Below are positions 10,602-13,793 of a stretch of DNA of 24,923 nt, piece after piece (within the stretch, counting starts at the first letter, position 1; the number at the start of each line of letters is the position of its first letter). The DNA is from a virus. The stretch spans positions 1 to 24,923 of IMG/VR virus record IMGVR_UViG_3300030688_000112; one strand, given 5' to 3'. The notes under the pieces are model-generated. The model made no database searches. It was not told the origin of the DNA and saw only the letters and a program-made list of their open reading frames with translations. Both the position numbers and the translations under genes were made by a program.

Positions 10602-10744
10602 CTCGACTCCAAAAACTGCCACAGGCACTATTTTTAGGCGCAACGCCTGTTTAGAGACGCCGACACCAGCTTCGACGACGTCAGGATATCACGAGGCATT
10701 CCGCTCTGCTAGTTTTCATTATGCAACCATCCCGCGTTTTTGAT

Positions 10745-10883
10745 GGACATTTTCGGGGTCGATACATCATTTTTGCGGTGGAATCCTGGAGCCGGGTTGC
10801 CATTTTTGCTATTTCGATGAGGATTCCCCGGGTCGGAGTCTCATTTTTGCTCAGGAATCCTGGAGTCGGTTTCTCATTTTTGC
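10745..10883 (+). repeat. Four ~30-bp tandem repeats ending CATTTTTGC
   Basis: Units lie at 10745-10776 (divergent, 32 bases), 10780-10809, 10821-10850 and 10854-10883 (30 bases each). Consensus is GGAATCCYGGAGTCGG at the 5' side, 3-5 variable bases, then TCATTTTTGC. Spacers are 3, 11 and 3 bases, so units step by about 33-35, 41 and 33 bases, i.e. close to whole helix turns. This suggests same-face protein binding (iterons or operators). Confidence 0.75.
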
Positions 10884-11110
10884 TATACGCAGCCCTCCTG
10901 GGGTCACCCAGGTAGCGCGCACCCCCCGCTCCGCCCGCGCGGAGCATGATCCCCCTGCGGGTGCTTCTCCCGCCCCGTCCGCCGGGGCCACGCGTGGCTC
11001 TCGCTATGTGTCTGCCGTCCGATCCTACGCCATGGGCGCGGGTGGTGGCGGCTTTGGCTTGGCGCGATGTCTGGGTGGGTGGCTTCCTTTCGTCCTCTTC
11101 AATAAAAGCA

Positions 11111-11189: not shown

Positions 11190-11210
11190 CTAGACGCCAA
11201 CGGCGTCTAG
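11190..11210 (-). terminator. Hairpin terminator of the leftward small-gene block
   Basis: CTAGACGCC and GGCGTCTAG form a perfect 9-bp stem around a 3-base loop. On the minus strand it is followed by TTTCGTCT. It lies 16 bases beyond the last stop of the leftward block (11226), so it is the likely end of that transcript. Confidence 0.65.
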
Positions 11211-11225
11211 CCTATCCTGACGTTC

Positions 11226-11570
11226 CTAGCCTGCTAGAGCGCTCTTGATCTTTCCGCTGTAGTCTGTCGCCACCCATGCCGTGACACATGCTCGCAAGTC
11301 TGTCCTGTCCTCTTCCGACAGGTTCAAATGATCTGACAGGACGGACACGTTCCGGACAAGATCGGACACCGAACCGACGAAAGCCATATGGCGCGCATTG
11401 CCGTTGGAGTCGACGAAAGAACATTGCACGAAGGAATCGCTCGTAATGATTGCCTTGCCTTCGAAGCGCGGAGTCTGGCCATGGTTCGCACCAAATGCGC
11501 ATGAGAGAATCGCGCCGAATTGCGTCCCACGTGTCGCCGCAAGCGCGCGAGTCCTATAGGTAACGTTCAT
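11226..11570 (-). CDS. Hypothetical protein, last gene of switch-controlled block (114 aa)
   Basis: The start is ATG 11570-11568 (MNVTYRTRALAATRGTQFG), 8 bases after the AAGG end of repeat element copy 1. The longer open frame to 11687 would run through that element and is not credible. The protein shows a beta-rich N-terminal half ('ILSCAFGANHGQTPRFEGKAIITSDSFVQCSFVDSNGNARHMAFVGSVSDLV') and a helical C-terminus ('LSEEDRTDLRACVTAWVATDYSGKIKSALAG'). The latter resembles C-terminal helices of small phage proteins of similar length. No catalytic motif is seen and I do not recognise a family. Expression should depend on readthrough of, or SD release from, the element upstream. Confidence 0.75.
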   Translation of the reverse strand: MNVTYRTRALAATRGTQFGAILSCAFGANHGQTPRFEGKAIITSDSFVQCSFVDSNGNARHMAFVGSVSDLVRNVSVLSDHLNLSEEDRTDLRACVTAWVATDYSGKIKSALAG

Positions 11571-11578
11571 TGGATTAA

Positions 11579-11644
11579 CCTTGCTTCCTGCTAGGTTGGC
11601 ACGATGCCAGCCTATGAAGAAACAAGGCGGACGAGTCCGCCTTG
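11579..11644 (-). repeat. 66-nt RNA switch-like element, copy 1
   Basis: In leftward RNA, CAAGGCGGA-CTCG-TCCGCCTTG forms a 9-bp terminator-like hairpin followed by TTTCTT. A second stem TAGGCTGGCA / TGCCAACCTA (one C-A mismatch) follows, then the Shine-Dalgarno region AGGAAGCAAGG, 8 bases before the start at 11570. The 3' arm of hairpin 1 plus its T-run (CCTTGTTTCTT) is complementary to the SD region (with G-U pairs), so hairpin 1 and SD-sequestration exclude each other. Confidence 0.85.
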
Positions 11645-11650
11645 GATCGA

Positions 11651-11890
11651 TCACGTTGCGTTGTTTCGTTCGTTCCCATGCTCGCATGCCAGACAGATCA
11701 CAGTGACGATTGTGTCACCATCTTGGCTGACTTCTGCATCGTCCGCGAGCGGTGCGCCGCACGCGTCGCAAACGTCCGGCTTGTTCGATCCTTCCTCTTC
11801 TGTGGCAATGTCCGCCACAGCCTGAATTACCCTGACGAGTCCGTAAGACCTAATCAGCGACGCAAGAGCCTGATATTCAAAGTCAGTCAT
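11651..11890 (-). CDS. Zinc-ribbon small protein (79 aa)
   Basis: The start is ATG 11890-11888 (MTDFEYQALASLIRSYG), 6 bases after the AAGG of element copy 2. An in-frame TTG at 11896 is an unlikely alternative. Residues 43-73 contain CDACGAPLADDAEVSQDGDTIVTVICLAC: two CxxC pairs 23 residues apart, a zinc ribbon. The N-terminal half is an amphipathic helix pair. The protein probably binds nucleic acid or another protein through zinc, but I cannot name a target. It lies between element copies 2 and 1. Confidence 0.75.
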   Translation of the reverse strand: MTDFEYQALASLIRSYGLVRVIQAVADIATEEEGSNKPDVCDACGAPLADDAEVSQDGDTIVTVICLACEHGNERNNAT

Positions 11891-11896
11891 GTGCAA

Positions 11897-11962
11897 CCTT
11901 GCTTCCTGCTAGGCTGACACGATGCCAGCCTATGAAGAAACAAGGCGGACGAGTCCGCCTTG
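11897..11962 (-). repeat. 66-nt RNA switch-like element, copy 2
   Basis: This copy differs from copy 1 by two bases, one in each position of the second stem (G-U instead of a pair). The terminator-like hairpin, its T-rich tail and the SD-containing segment are unchanged. It lies between the genes 11969-12202 and 11651-11890. Confidence 0.85.
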
Positions 11963-11968
11963 GATAGC

Positions 11969-12202
11969 CTAAGCTATCATCGCCTTTAACTCAGTCTTGA
12001 CACGCCGCGCGACATCTCCGCGCCATGCGGCGGCATTGCTTAGGAAATACCGCACGATGACGCGCGCATTGTCCATCTCATAGCGATCCGACACGGAGTC
12101 CAGCGATTGCATGGCGGACAGATACGGGACTGCGCCAAAATAGACCTTTTTCCAATCGGCGCGAATCTCGCGGGCGATAGCGGCAATAGAGCGTGTGGAC
12201 AT
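11969..12202 (-). CDS. Conserved small phage protein (77 aa), 'RSIA-IAREIRADW' type
   Basis: The ATG (12202-12200) lies 8 bases after the AAGG of element copy 3. The protein is MSTRSIAAIAREIRADWKK followed by VYFGAVPYLSAMQSLDSVSD, a tyrosine/aromatic centre and a basic C-terminal helix (ARRVKTELKAMIA). I recognise 'RSIA-IA-EIR-DWK-..-FGAVPYLDAM-SL...VRYFLSNA--WRGD-ARRVK-ELK' as a small family of phages and actinobacterial/proteobacterial prophages, with function unknown to me. The invariant W and YF-NA-WRG core is intact. It stands between switch elements copies 3 and 2. Confidence 0.8.
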   Translation of the reverse strand: MSTRSIAAIAREIRADWKKVYFGAVPYLSAMQSLDSVSDRYEMDNARVIVRYFLSNAAAWRGDVARRVKTELKAMIA

Positions 12203-12210
12203 GAGATTGA

Positions 12211-12276
12211 CCTTGTTTCCTGCTAGGCTGGCACGATGCCAGCCTATGAAGAAACAAGGCGGACGAGTCCGCCTTG
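12211..12276 (-). repeat. 66-nt RNA switch-like element, copy 3
   Basis: In this copy the SD segment reads AGGAAACAAGG, so it pairs with CCTTGTTTCTT without the G-U at the sixth position. The second stem TAGGCTGGCA/TGCCAGCCTA is perfect. The terminator-like hairpin is identical to the other copies. It lies between genes 12281-12505 and 11969-12202. Confidence 0.88.
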
Positions 12277-12280
12277 AGTC

Positions 12281-12505
12281 CTACCGTTTCACCTTGCCTA
12301 AGCGTATCCGGCGGACAAGTTCGCGTTCCGCATCTTTCGCGCGCTTTTGTTCCGCCTTGTTTGTTGGAGTCATGGAAAAATCAGCGTTATCACGTTCATC
12401 CGCCCGAATGATCCAAATCAATTCGGATACTCGCAAACGCGGCAGCGCAACGTTATTGATACGATTAACCCAAGCGTTGAATTGTGCGTCGGTTTGCCTT
12501 GCCAT
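12281..12505 (-). CDS. Basic hypothetical protein (74 aa)
   Basis: The ATG (12505-12503) lies 9 bases after the AAGG of element copy 4. The protein is MARQTDAQFNAWVNRINNVALP and later RVSELIWIIRADERDNADFSM, ending in a strongly basic helix 'NKAEQKRAKDAERELVRRIRLGKVKR'. It is likely helical. A DNA/RNA contact is plausible from charge but not demonstrated. I do not recognise the family. It is flanked by copies 4 and 3. Confidence 0.7.
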   Translation of the reverse strand: MARQTDAQFNAWVNRINNVALPRLRVSELIWIIRADERDNADFSMTPTNKAEQKRAKDAERELVRRIRLGKVKR

Positions 12506-12514
12506 GATGCTTAA

Positions 12515-12580
12515 CCTTGTTTCCTGCTAGGCTGGCACGATGTCAGCCTATGAAGAAACAAGGCGGACGAGTCCGCCTTG
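12515..12580 (-). repeat. 66-nt RNA switch-like element, copy 4
   Basis: Like copy 3, with a single base change in the second stem that gives an A-C mismatch. The terminator-like hairpin and the SD-complementary segment are identical to the others. It separates genes 12587-12775 and 12281-12505. Confidence 0.88.
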
Positions 12581-12586
12581 CGTGTA

Positions 12587-12775
12587 TCACTCCGCCGGCT
12601 TTACCTTCGCCTTAGCGAAATACAGCGATCCACCAAAACGACCGACACGGAAAAAATGAAGCGCGCCGACTCGCTTGTAAGATGCTTTAGGGAAAGCAAT
12701 CGGCGCGATGTATCCGGCGGCAAAAAAGGAAAGTCCCGACAGAACAGCGATGTGGGGAAGGAAGGAATTCAACAT
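12587..12775 (-). CDS. Small protein with N-terminal hydrophobic segment (62 aa)
   Basis: The ATG (12775-12773) overlaps the TAA of the upstream gene (TAATG) and follows GGAG. The N-terminus MLNSFLPHIAVLSGLSFFAAG is a single hydrophobic segment (membrane or signal-anchor). The rest is basic with 'YKRVGALHFFRVGRFGGSLYFAKAK'. That pattern (RRGALRFLRIGRFGFSF) occurs in small phage proteins I have seen, with no known role. It is translationally coupled to the gene upstream and followed by element copy 4. Confidence 0.72.
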   Translation of the reverse strand: MLNSFLPHIAVLSGLSFFAAGYIAPIAFPKASYKRVGALHFFRVGRFGGSLYFAKAKVKPAE

Positions 12776-13122
12776 TATACGGACTCCAAATGGCGGATCG
12801 AGACGGAGGGGGAAACGAAGTCAGCAACGCCAGACGCGTGAACAATCATCACGCTATTTTGGCGTGTGGCGTGCCCATAGAACCGGGCGATGGACTCCAA
12901 TTTGGCGGAGTTGTCCGCCGAGTCTTCCATCGCAATGTCATACCTAACAGATGGTTCGATATAGACTTGACCGGTGGAGTCATCGCGCCATCCGCCGGAC
13001 ACTGCCAAGGCGGAAAATCCGCCGAACGAGTCGATTAGGCAAAGCTTCAAAGCATGATGGAAGTCGTTTAGCTCGACTCCATCATTGTCATGTGTGGGAA
13101 GGATTAAAGAGGCGATACGCAT
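12775..13122 (-). CDS. Conserved phage protein, 'SLILPT-DNDG' family (115 aa)
   Basis: The start is ATG 13122-13120 (MRIASLILPTHDNDGVELND), with AAGG upstream. A longer frame to 13185 would begin without a ribosome site. The sequence has 'HHALKLCLIDSFGGFSALAVSGGWRDDSTGQVYIEPSVRYDIAMEDSADNSAKLESIARFYG'. This order (LILPT-DN-G-..-H-ALK-.L---FGGFTA--G-GGW-..-G-.Y-EPV--Y-VAM) is a family common in phages, function unknown. It is the first gene of the leftward block. Downstream genes are separated by the switch elements, except for the next, which is coupled by TAATG. Confidence 0.8.
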   Translation of the reverse strand: MRIASLILPTHDNDGVELNDFHHALKLCLIDSFGGFSALAVSGGWRDDSTGQVYIEPSVRYDIAMEDSADNSAKLESIARFYGHATRQNSVMIVHASGVADFVSPSVSIRHLESV

Positions 13123-13178
13123 TTTAAGGCCTTTCTTGTGTCCGCCCGTTTGGCGTGAGTGCAATCTAGGCTTACCAT

Positions 13179-13189
13179 AAAACATGCGT
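13179..13189 (-). promoter_or_regulatory. ACGCATGTTTT box between the two small-gene blocks
   Basis: On the minus strand the box ACGCATGTTTT (13189-13179) is identical to the one at 460-470. It lies 57 bases upstream of the ATG at 13122, but no good -35/-10 follows at the usual distance. On the plus strand TTGACG (about 13207-13212) with a weak -10 is a possible promoter for the rightward block. Confidence 0.35.
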
Positions 13190-13278
13190 CAAGCTAATTT
13201 AATCGCTTGACGTTAGAAAAAATTACGCTGTATGGTCTGATCACGCCAAACCGGCGGAACCTGTTAAGGCAGAATGAC

Positions 13279-13596
13279 ATGTCAAAAATCGCTTATGATA
13301 ACAAATCCCACAAGCGAGTCCGCCGGATCGCGATCCGTGCGAAGGAAGCAATTCGCACCATGGCAATCCGCACCGCTCCCGAGCCCGTAGAACCGGCGGA
13401 GTCACTCCGCCGCACCGTCCGGCGCGCAATGTTTGCCGCTGGCATGGCACTATGCGCCACGCTCGCTATCGGCGCCCATAATGCTGAAGCACGTGGCGGA
13501 AACAACGGTCACTCTGGAAAGCATGCTGCCAAGGCGGAGTCCTACTCGGCCGGAAAATCCGCCGTTGCTTCGTTCCGCGAACATTTCCAGCATTAG
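13279..13596 (+). CDS. Small secreted or membrane-anchored basic protein (105 aa)
   Basis: The start is ATG 13279 with AAGG upstream (MSKIAYDNKSHKRVRR). Residues 1-50 are basic. Residues ~50-72 'MFAAGMALCATLAIGAHNAEA' look like a signal or transmembrane segment with an A-x-A cut site (AEA then RGGNNG). The C-terminal part is glycine/histidine/lysine-rich (GGNNGHSGKHAAKAES). It is likely exported or membrane-attached, possibly an envelope-acting moron. The extended basic N-terminus before the hydrophobic stretch is unusual for a signal peptide and raises the option of a cytoplasmic DNA-binding half. Function unknown. Confidence 0.6.
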   Translation: MSKIAYDNKSHKRVRRIAIRAKEAIRTMAIRTAPEPVEPAESLRRTVRRAMFAAGMALCATLAIGAHNAEARGGNNGHSGKHAAKAESYSAGKSAVASFREHFQH

Positions 13597-13604
13597 GAGT
13601 CAAA

Positions 13605-13793
13605 ATGAACGGACTCCAATTGCTACGCGGGATTGCGAGGCTCTTGCTTTGCAATCCTAGCCTAGCCTTCCGGAAAGTATATTTCCGACCGTCATGCGCG
13701 CTTGCTGACGGCGACTATGCGGATTGCACGTCGATTCAGGTTGAGCCGACGATTGACCCAGATGTGACTCCCTATTTCACAATCGAAGGATAA
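13605..13793 (+). CDS. Small hypothetical protein (62 aa)
   Basis: The ATG at 13605 follows TAGGAGTC, a good ribosome site, 8 bases after the previous stop. The protein is MNGLQLLRGIARLLLCNPSLAF, basic and hydrophobic at the N-terminus, with a cysteine pair in the middle (CALADGDYADC). It is acidic at the C-terminus. No family is recognised. The coding call rests on the ribosome site and on the same-strand cluster. Confidence 0.6.
   Translation: MNGLQLLRGIARLLLCNPSLAFRKVYFRPSCALADGDYADCTSIQVEPTIDPDVTPYFTIEG

Follow-up and report, generated by a model that had tools for sequence, protein, structure and literature searches.

Four repeated two-hairpin elements at successive gene boundaries of a phage operon, candidate RNA cassettes for gene-by-gene control

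In the genome of an uncultured phage, we found four nearly identical 66-nt elements at successive boundaries of one leftward gene block, and each of them carries a terminator-like hairpin (h1) followed by a second hairpin (h2) that can cover the SD of the next gene. The explanation we favor, with a probability that we put a little short of even, is that the elements are cis-acting RNA cassettes within one polycistronic transcript, combining leaky termination with damped translation initiation at each boundary. In this way, the phage would probably be able to adjust the output of each gene on a common message.

Elements and genes of the leftward block

The window, meaning the whole stretch of DNA that was analysed, is a virus record of 24,923 bases, and its genes include those for a Holliday junction resolvase, the small and large terminase and the portal. 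The nearest relatives of its terminase were those of Microcystis phage Mwe-JY26 (54%) and of alphaproteobacterial phages such as Lacusarx, DSS3P8 and RXM. The leftward block consists of six genes (13122 to 11226), and the elements occupy its boundaries 2-3, 3-4, 4-5 and 5-6 in a single orientation. The original prediction of four near-identical 66-base elements at successive leftward boundaries was confirmed for every copy, to the exact base and on the minus strand (Table 1). Each element begins 4–6 nt past the upstream stop codon and ends at the SD AAGG of the next gene, which stands 6–9 nt ahead of the ATG (at 11570, 11890, 12202 or 12505).

Table 1 Features of the leftward block and its elements (positions in the window)
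Feature	Position	Strand	Remarks
Promoter, sigma70-like, operon head	13163..13192	-	TTGACG-18-TAGATT; score 10.0, 0.5% of null windows as high
Gene 1, DUF3574-like	12775..13122	-	start shifted to 13122 after alignment to Mwe-JY26 and to Brevundimonas phage Bajun
Gene 2, 62-aa ORF	12587..12775	-	without upstream element
Element copy 4	12515..12580	-	transcribed first
h1 of copy 4	12559..12580	-	CAAGGCGGA CTCG TCCGCCTTG, tail TTTCTTC
h2 of copy 4	12515..12563	-	SD AAGG at 3' end
Gene 3, 74-aa ORF	12281..12505	-	behind copy 4
Element copy 3	12211..12276	-	
h1 of copy 3	12255..12276	-	
h2 of copy 3	12211..12259	-	
Gene 4, 77-aa	11969..12202	-	behind copy 3; PHROG 13953
Element copy 2	11897..11962	-	
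h1 of copy 2	11941..11962	-	
h2 of copy 2	11897..11945	-	
Gene 5, 79-aa ORF	11651..11890	-	behind copy 2
Element copy 1	11579..11644	-	orthologue of the gene behind it in relative L022 is preceded by the same two-hairpin plan
h1 of copy 1	11623..11644	-	
h2 of copy 1	11579..11627	-	
Gene 6, 114-aa	11226..11570	-	behind copy 1; orthologue in L022, 50% identical
Candidate block-end terminator, after last gene	11190..11210	-	hairpin CTAGACGCC GTT GGCGTCTAG, tail TTTCGTC

The copies were 95–98% alike; their edges were sharp, and CAAGG stood at either end. The 22-nt h1 was identical in all four, and 100 dinucleotide shuffles gave no match. There were no paralogues among the five genes that flank the elements, and because the flanking genes are mutually unrelated, the element must have been copied without the genes. 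The 66-mers varied at four sites only, all of them in h2: copies 1 and 2 have G-U for A-U in the lower stem, copy 2 has G-U for G-C in the upper stem, and copies 1 and 4 each have a single change that breaks an upper-stem pair. No compensatory changes were found among the four copies, two of which break h2. The expectation that copies 1 and 2 use G-U pairs and that the pairing survives therefore held in the lower stem but not in the upper stem, where copies 1 and 4 each have a broken pair.

Another contig of this virus (IMGVR_UViG_3300028909_000099) was identical to the window across the elements, so it gives no extra evidence on them. The two records showed 46 differences, all within a 411-nt stretch (13257-13667) with about 11 kb around it identical, and by its sequence this stretch may be a local swap or a hypervariable small gene. 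The product of the 77-aa gene (11969-12202) shared 60–67% identity with Gordonia and Mycobacterium phage proteins, which possibly reflects cross-phylum gene transfer into an alphaproteobacterial-type phage. The window also encodes a homologue of a Mwe-JY26 protein annotated as "immunity repressor." Upstream of a leftward repressor-like gene stands a tandem pair of 74-nt repeats that contain CATTTTTGC iterons (10738-10885), and similar AAAAATG direct repeats precede the homologous gene in Mwe-JY26 (L015 21027-21126) and in L022 (10500-10660); the repeats are possibly binding sites for the protein that this gene encodes.

Hairpins, predicted folding and promoters

As RNA, h1 reads CAAGGCGGA-CUCG-UCCGCCUUG and is followed by the tail UUUCUUC. 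Its 9 bp include six GC pairs in all four copies, which is the G+C-rich hairpin of an intrinsic terminator, and its tail scored 4.25, a moderate value inside the range of the group's other terminator-like hairpins (2.2–5.1). So the predicted 9-bp hairpin was found unchanged in the four copies, but the tail described as U-rich was moderate rather than strong. The second hairpin, h2, reads UGUUUCUU-CA-UAGGCUGGCA-UCG-UGCCAGCCUA-GC-AGGAAACA, with a 10-bp stem and a CA/GC internal loop. In the folding model, its lower stem can be extended to 12 bp, and this extension would pair CCUUG from h1 with CAAGG at the SD. Taken as a whole, h2 is a helix of about 17–22 pairs with one 2x2 internal loop. An Rfam search with the element gave no match.

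In the computed folds, the proposed pair of a terminator-like hairpin and an SD-covering hairpin was recovered in all four copies, and the folds had z values of −4.6 to −7.2 relative to shuffled sequence. The minimum-energy structure of the 66-mer without flanks contained both hairpins, with h1 cut to 7 bp and the lower stem of h2 to 8 bp, and the competition between h1 and SD pairing spanned only about 5 nt (CCUUG). The two foldings are thus not strictly exclusive, and the mutual exclusion claimed in the original prediction had to be given up. Near-equal alternative states with opposite SD access did come out of the computation: with flanks included, full h1 and full SD pairing were within about 1.3 kcal/mol of each other in copies 2–4 (1.2–4.7 in copy 1), and holding the 5' arm of h1 open brought the predicted unpaired fraction of the SD down to 0.00. 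The arm might be kept open in this manner by a ribosome that sits on the stop codon of the preceding gene.

When the elements were folded with their flanks, the SD was unpaired on average 0.41, 0.30, 0.08 and 0.10 (copies 4, 3, 2 and 1). For comparison, we used 275 gene boundaries with gaps of 40–110 nt from the same loci, in which the median was 0.42. The four elements fell between the 8th and 46th percentiles of this set, which means that their SD accessibility is unexceptional. Partial SD pairing is common in these loci, and it is the regular two-hairpin architecture that distinguishes the elements.

No sigma70-like promoter was found in the four elements, whose scores (2.2–5.2) were matched by 20–71% of null windows, and none was found in the L022 element by the same scoring. 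The Mwe-JY26 boundaries scored 8.3, a value reached by 1.6% of random windows. The weights behind all these scores are E. coli-like, so an unusual promoter could escape, and some relatives' cassettes score low too. Since the elements scored like random windows and the operon head scored high, the elements are most likely promoterless and lie inside one transcript.

Boundary elements in related phages

About 120 related loci were gathered through terminase-based and other searches. In many of them, the repeated boundary cassette consisted of a terminator-like hairpin, a promoter (TTGAC..., often with CtrA-like/GAATC motifs), the SD and the ATG, and CtrA control of such phages has been described (PMC9437464). 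At its boundaries, the syntenic leftward block of Mwe-JY26 combined a terminator-like hairpin with the promoter TTGACT-17-TAGxTT, which has a 9-bp dyad, and with an SD. Near-identical terminator/promoter/SD cassettes, whose promoters are CtrA-like or contain GAATC, stood at many small genes of L015, L017, L018, L024-L028, L037-L045, L062 and L070, with intergenic copies up to 97% identical. Some other repeats were also seen in these loci. Mwe-JY26 carries an array of 29-nt tandem repeats (AGCCTGGAGAGCCTGGAGACCAGGGGCGC; L015 20383-20596) behind one gene and ahead of the promoter that follows. Repeated gene starts in L037 (8299-8371 and 8912-8984) and L039 (8589-8660) form a small hairpin that has the SD in its loop and the start codon in its stem (CATCGG...CCGATG), and a CATCGA...TCGATG version at L037 7365-7424 shows a pair change compensated between copies. 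The window had no CtrA sites of the TTAA-N7-TTAA type, and enrichment of GANTC was rejected (118 sites, 136 expected).

When viral and genome collections were scanned with exact and with gapped patterns, nothing came up beyond the same virus and chance palindromes. BLAST of the element matched no phage record even at E 1, and against plasmids it gave only 32-nt matches at chance level (E 0.5). The hairpin core GGCTGGCNTCGTGCCAGCC also occurs in L043-L046 and L062, where it belongs to a terminator-like hairpin, and this was judged to be chance. L103, which has a homologue of the 114-aa gene, showed tightly packed genes and no such element.

In L022, the orthologues of the first and last genes of the block are directly adjacent (51–53% identical in the best segments). 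We aligned this boundary with the window by hand, since MAFFT placed it wrongly. It runs in the order stop, 10 bases, h1, 2 bases, h2, SD and ATG. The h1 of L022 is TACGGCGCC-CTAG-GGCGCCGTA, with 9 bp and a tetraloop; four of its nine pairs are altered on both sides relative to the window, five are the same, and none is broken. These changes support pairing, but they would also be expected of a DNA dyad. The h2 of L022, GGGCTTGCA-CA-ATGGCAGG-GTTGG-CCTGCCAT-GC-TGCAAGCTC, has the identical CA/GC internal loop in stems that differ. An earlier loose structural scan (620 matches) was too noisy, so 126 loci (1.36 Mb) were scanned with a strict dyad search, which required an h2-like helix ahead of the SD and the ATG and an h1-like hairpin in front of that helix. 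It matched only window copies 2 and 3 and the L022 site, the single two-hairpin site in the whole L022 record (77.9 kb), and nothing in shuffled loci; copies 1 and 4 fell below the cut because of their h2 mismatch. The strict scan together with the pair changes in L022 therefore indicates that the two-hairpin plan is conserved at the orthologous boundary, as judged from this one relative.

In L022, h1 lacks the U-tail (2.35, compared with 4.25 in the window) and h2 does not take in the SD; termination and SD sequestration are therefore not conserved features. Complementarity between the SD and segment 2, the segment that h1 and h2 share, was expected to be kept in relatives, but L022, the sole relative with the same plan, lacks it. 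On present data, the switch features are therefore specific to the phage of the window.

Interpretation and comparison with known systems

In the explanation that we prefer, a single polycistronic transcript would start at the promoter at 13192-13163. Upon transcription, h1 would fold and serve as a leaky terminator, and it would also cap the 3' ends of messages that stop there. Leaky termination at h1 would leave less message for each successive gene, and in read-through transcripts h2 would lie directly over the next SD and damp or delay translation. Through the shared CCUUG segment, h1 and the SD would compete; a ribosome parked on the upstream stop would keep the SD closed, and its departure would leave it partly open. 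In phage-like simulations, stepwise lowering of expression along a genome by read-through terminators proved to be a workable design (PMC9135205). Termination, damping and switching are steps that we infer, and an on/off self-switch is so far an unproven prediction of folding. We consider it very unlikely that the elements form a repeated, translation-coupled double switch, free of ligand and protein, that times a gene-by-gene hand-over. In such a switch, a ribosome on the upstream stop would block h1, giving read-through with the downstream SD locked, and its departure would reverse both.

Termination would account for the conserved part of the element, a long helix with a fixed loop, no better than processing by an RNase III-like enzyme. 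Such an enzyme would cut h2 between the genes, freeing the SD from its partner strand and leaving h1 as a protective 3' end. The helix length, the 2x2 internal loop, whose place is the same in the two phages, and the position of h2 between stop and SD at each element boundary are all consistent with cleavage, which would also accommodate the variable stems, the absence of the U-tail in L022 and the absence of promoters. However, copies 1 and 4 carry the upper-stem mismatch and h1 would be superfluous, and we regard cleavage as rather unlikely to be the main role of the elements. A low probability is likewise given to a cassette acting at the DNA level, with a terminator and, on a promoter that would be weak or unusual, a dyad operator for a regulator of the phage or of its host. 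In favor of this reading, relatives use promoter dyads at the same place: the syntenic block of Mwe-JY26 combines a terminator-like hairpin, a promoter with a 9-bp dyad and an SD, other relatives too have repeated promoter cassettes at gene starts, and the window has the "immunity repressor" homologue. But a sigma70 promoter was found neither in the four elements nor in the L022 element, the dyad halves are spaced differently in the window and in L022, and the regulator's own upstream region has different, direct repeats.

The repeats could also be mainly a unit of recombination or dispersal with little regulatory role, serving as borders for swapping accessory genes or spreading as a selfish 66-mer. 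Unrelated genes with such similar, sharp-edged borders and CAAGG at both ends would fit this, as would the gene with close relatives in actinobacterial phages. The constant orientation, the fixed span between the end of one gene and the SD of the next, a hairpin plan that L022 retains with a different sequence and the lack of a further copy in the public collections searched all speak against it, and we think that it is quite unlikely.

Where relatives equip the small genes of this region with promoter cassettes, the phage seems to have a structured RNA spacer, which offers a natural comparison between promoter-based and RNA-based solutions. If the hairpins tune expression, the 66-nt unit would be a compact, regulator-free part that sets the output of each gene in one transcript. 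The elements share with the Mwe-JY26/Lacusarx-type cassettes the genome region, the repetition between unrelated small genes, and the order with a terminator-like hairpin first and the SD last, but those cassettes contain sigma70-like promoters (some CtrA-like/GAATC) where the window elements have a hairpin.

In the early region of phage T7, RNase III sites are repeated intergenic hairpins with an internal loop, lying between stop and SD in a polycistronic message. The window elements resemble them in being repeated intergenic hairpins with an internal loop, their processing being putative, and differ from them in the terminator-like h1, which the T7 sites are not known to have in such a form. 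As in attenuators and RBS-sequestering leaders, overlapping alternative stems connect a terminator-like hairpin with SD access, but the window elements have no sensor or ligand domain and no leader peptide, overlap by only about 5 nt, and are repeated within the operon. The SAS/ESAS of Cluster K mycobacteriophages is a conserved repeat, found at many gene starts with the SD inside it, and about half of the sites have a 17-bp imperfect inverted repeat just upstream; the repeat sequence varies by subcluster (PMC3203893). Its authors favored a DNA-binding site for ESAS because the changes in its arms do not support RNA pairing (PMC3203893). The elements described here are like SAS/ESAS in joining an SD-containing repeat at start codons with an inverted repeat, but no sequence relation was found (no phage record matches at E 1), and for SAS/ESAS no terminator hairpin after the upstream stop has been described.
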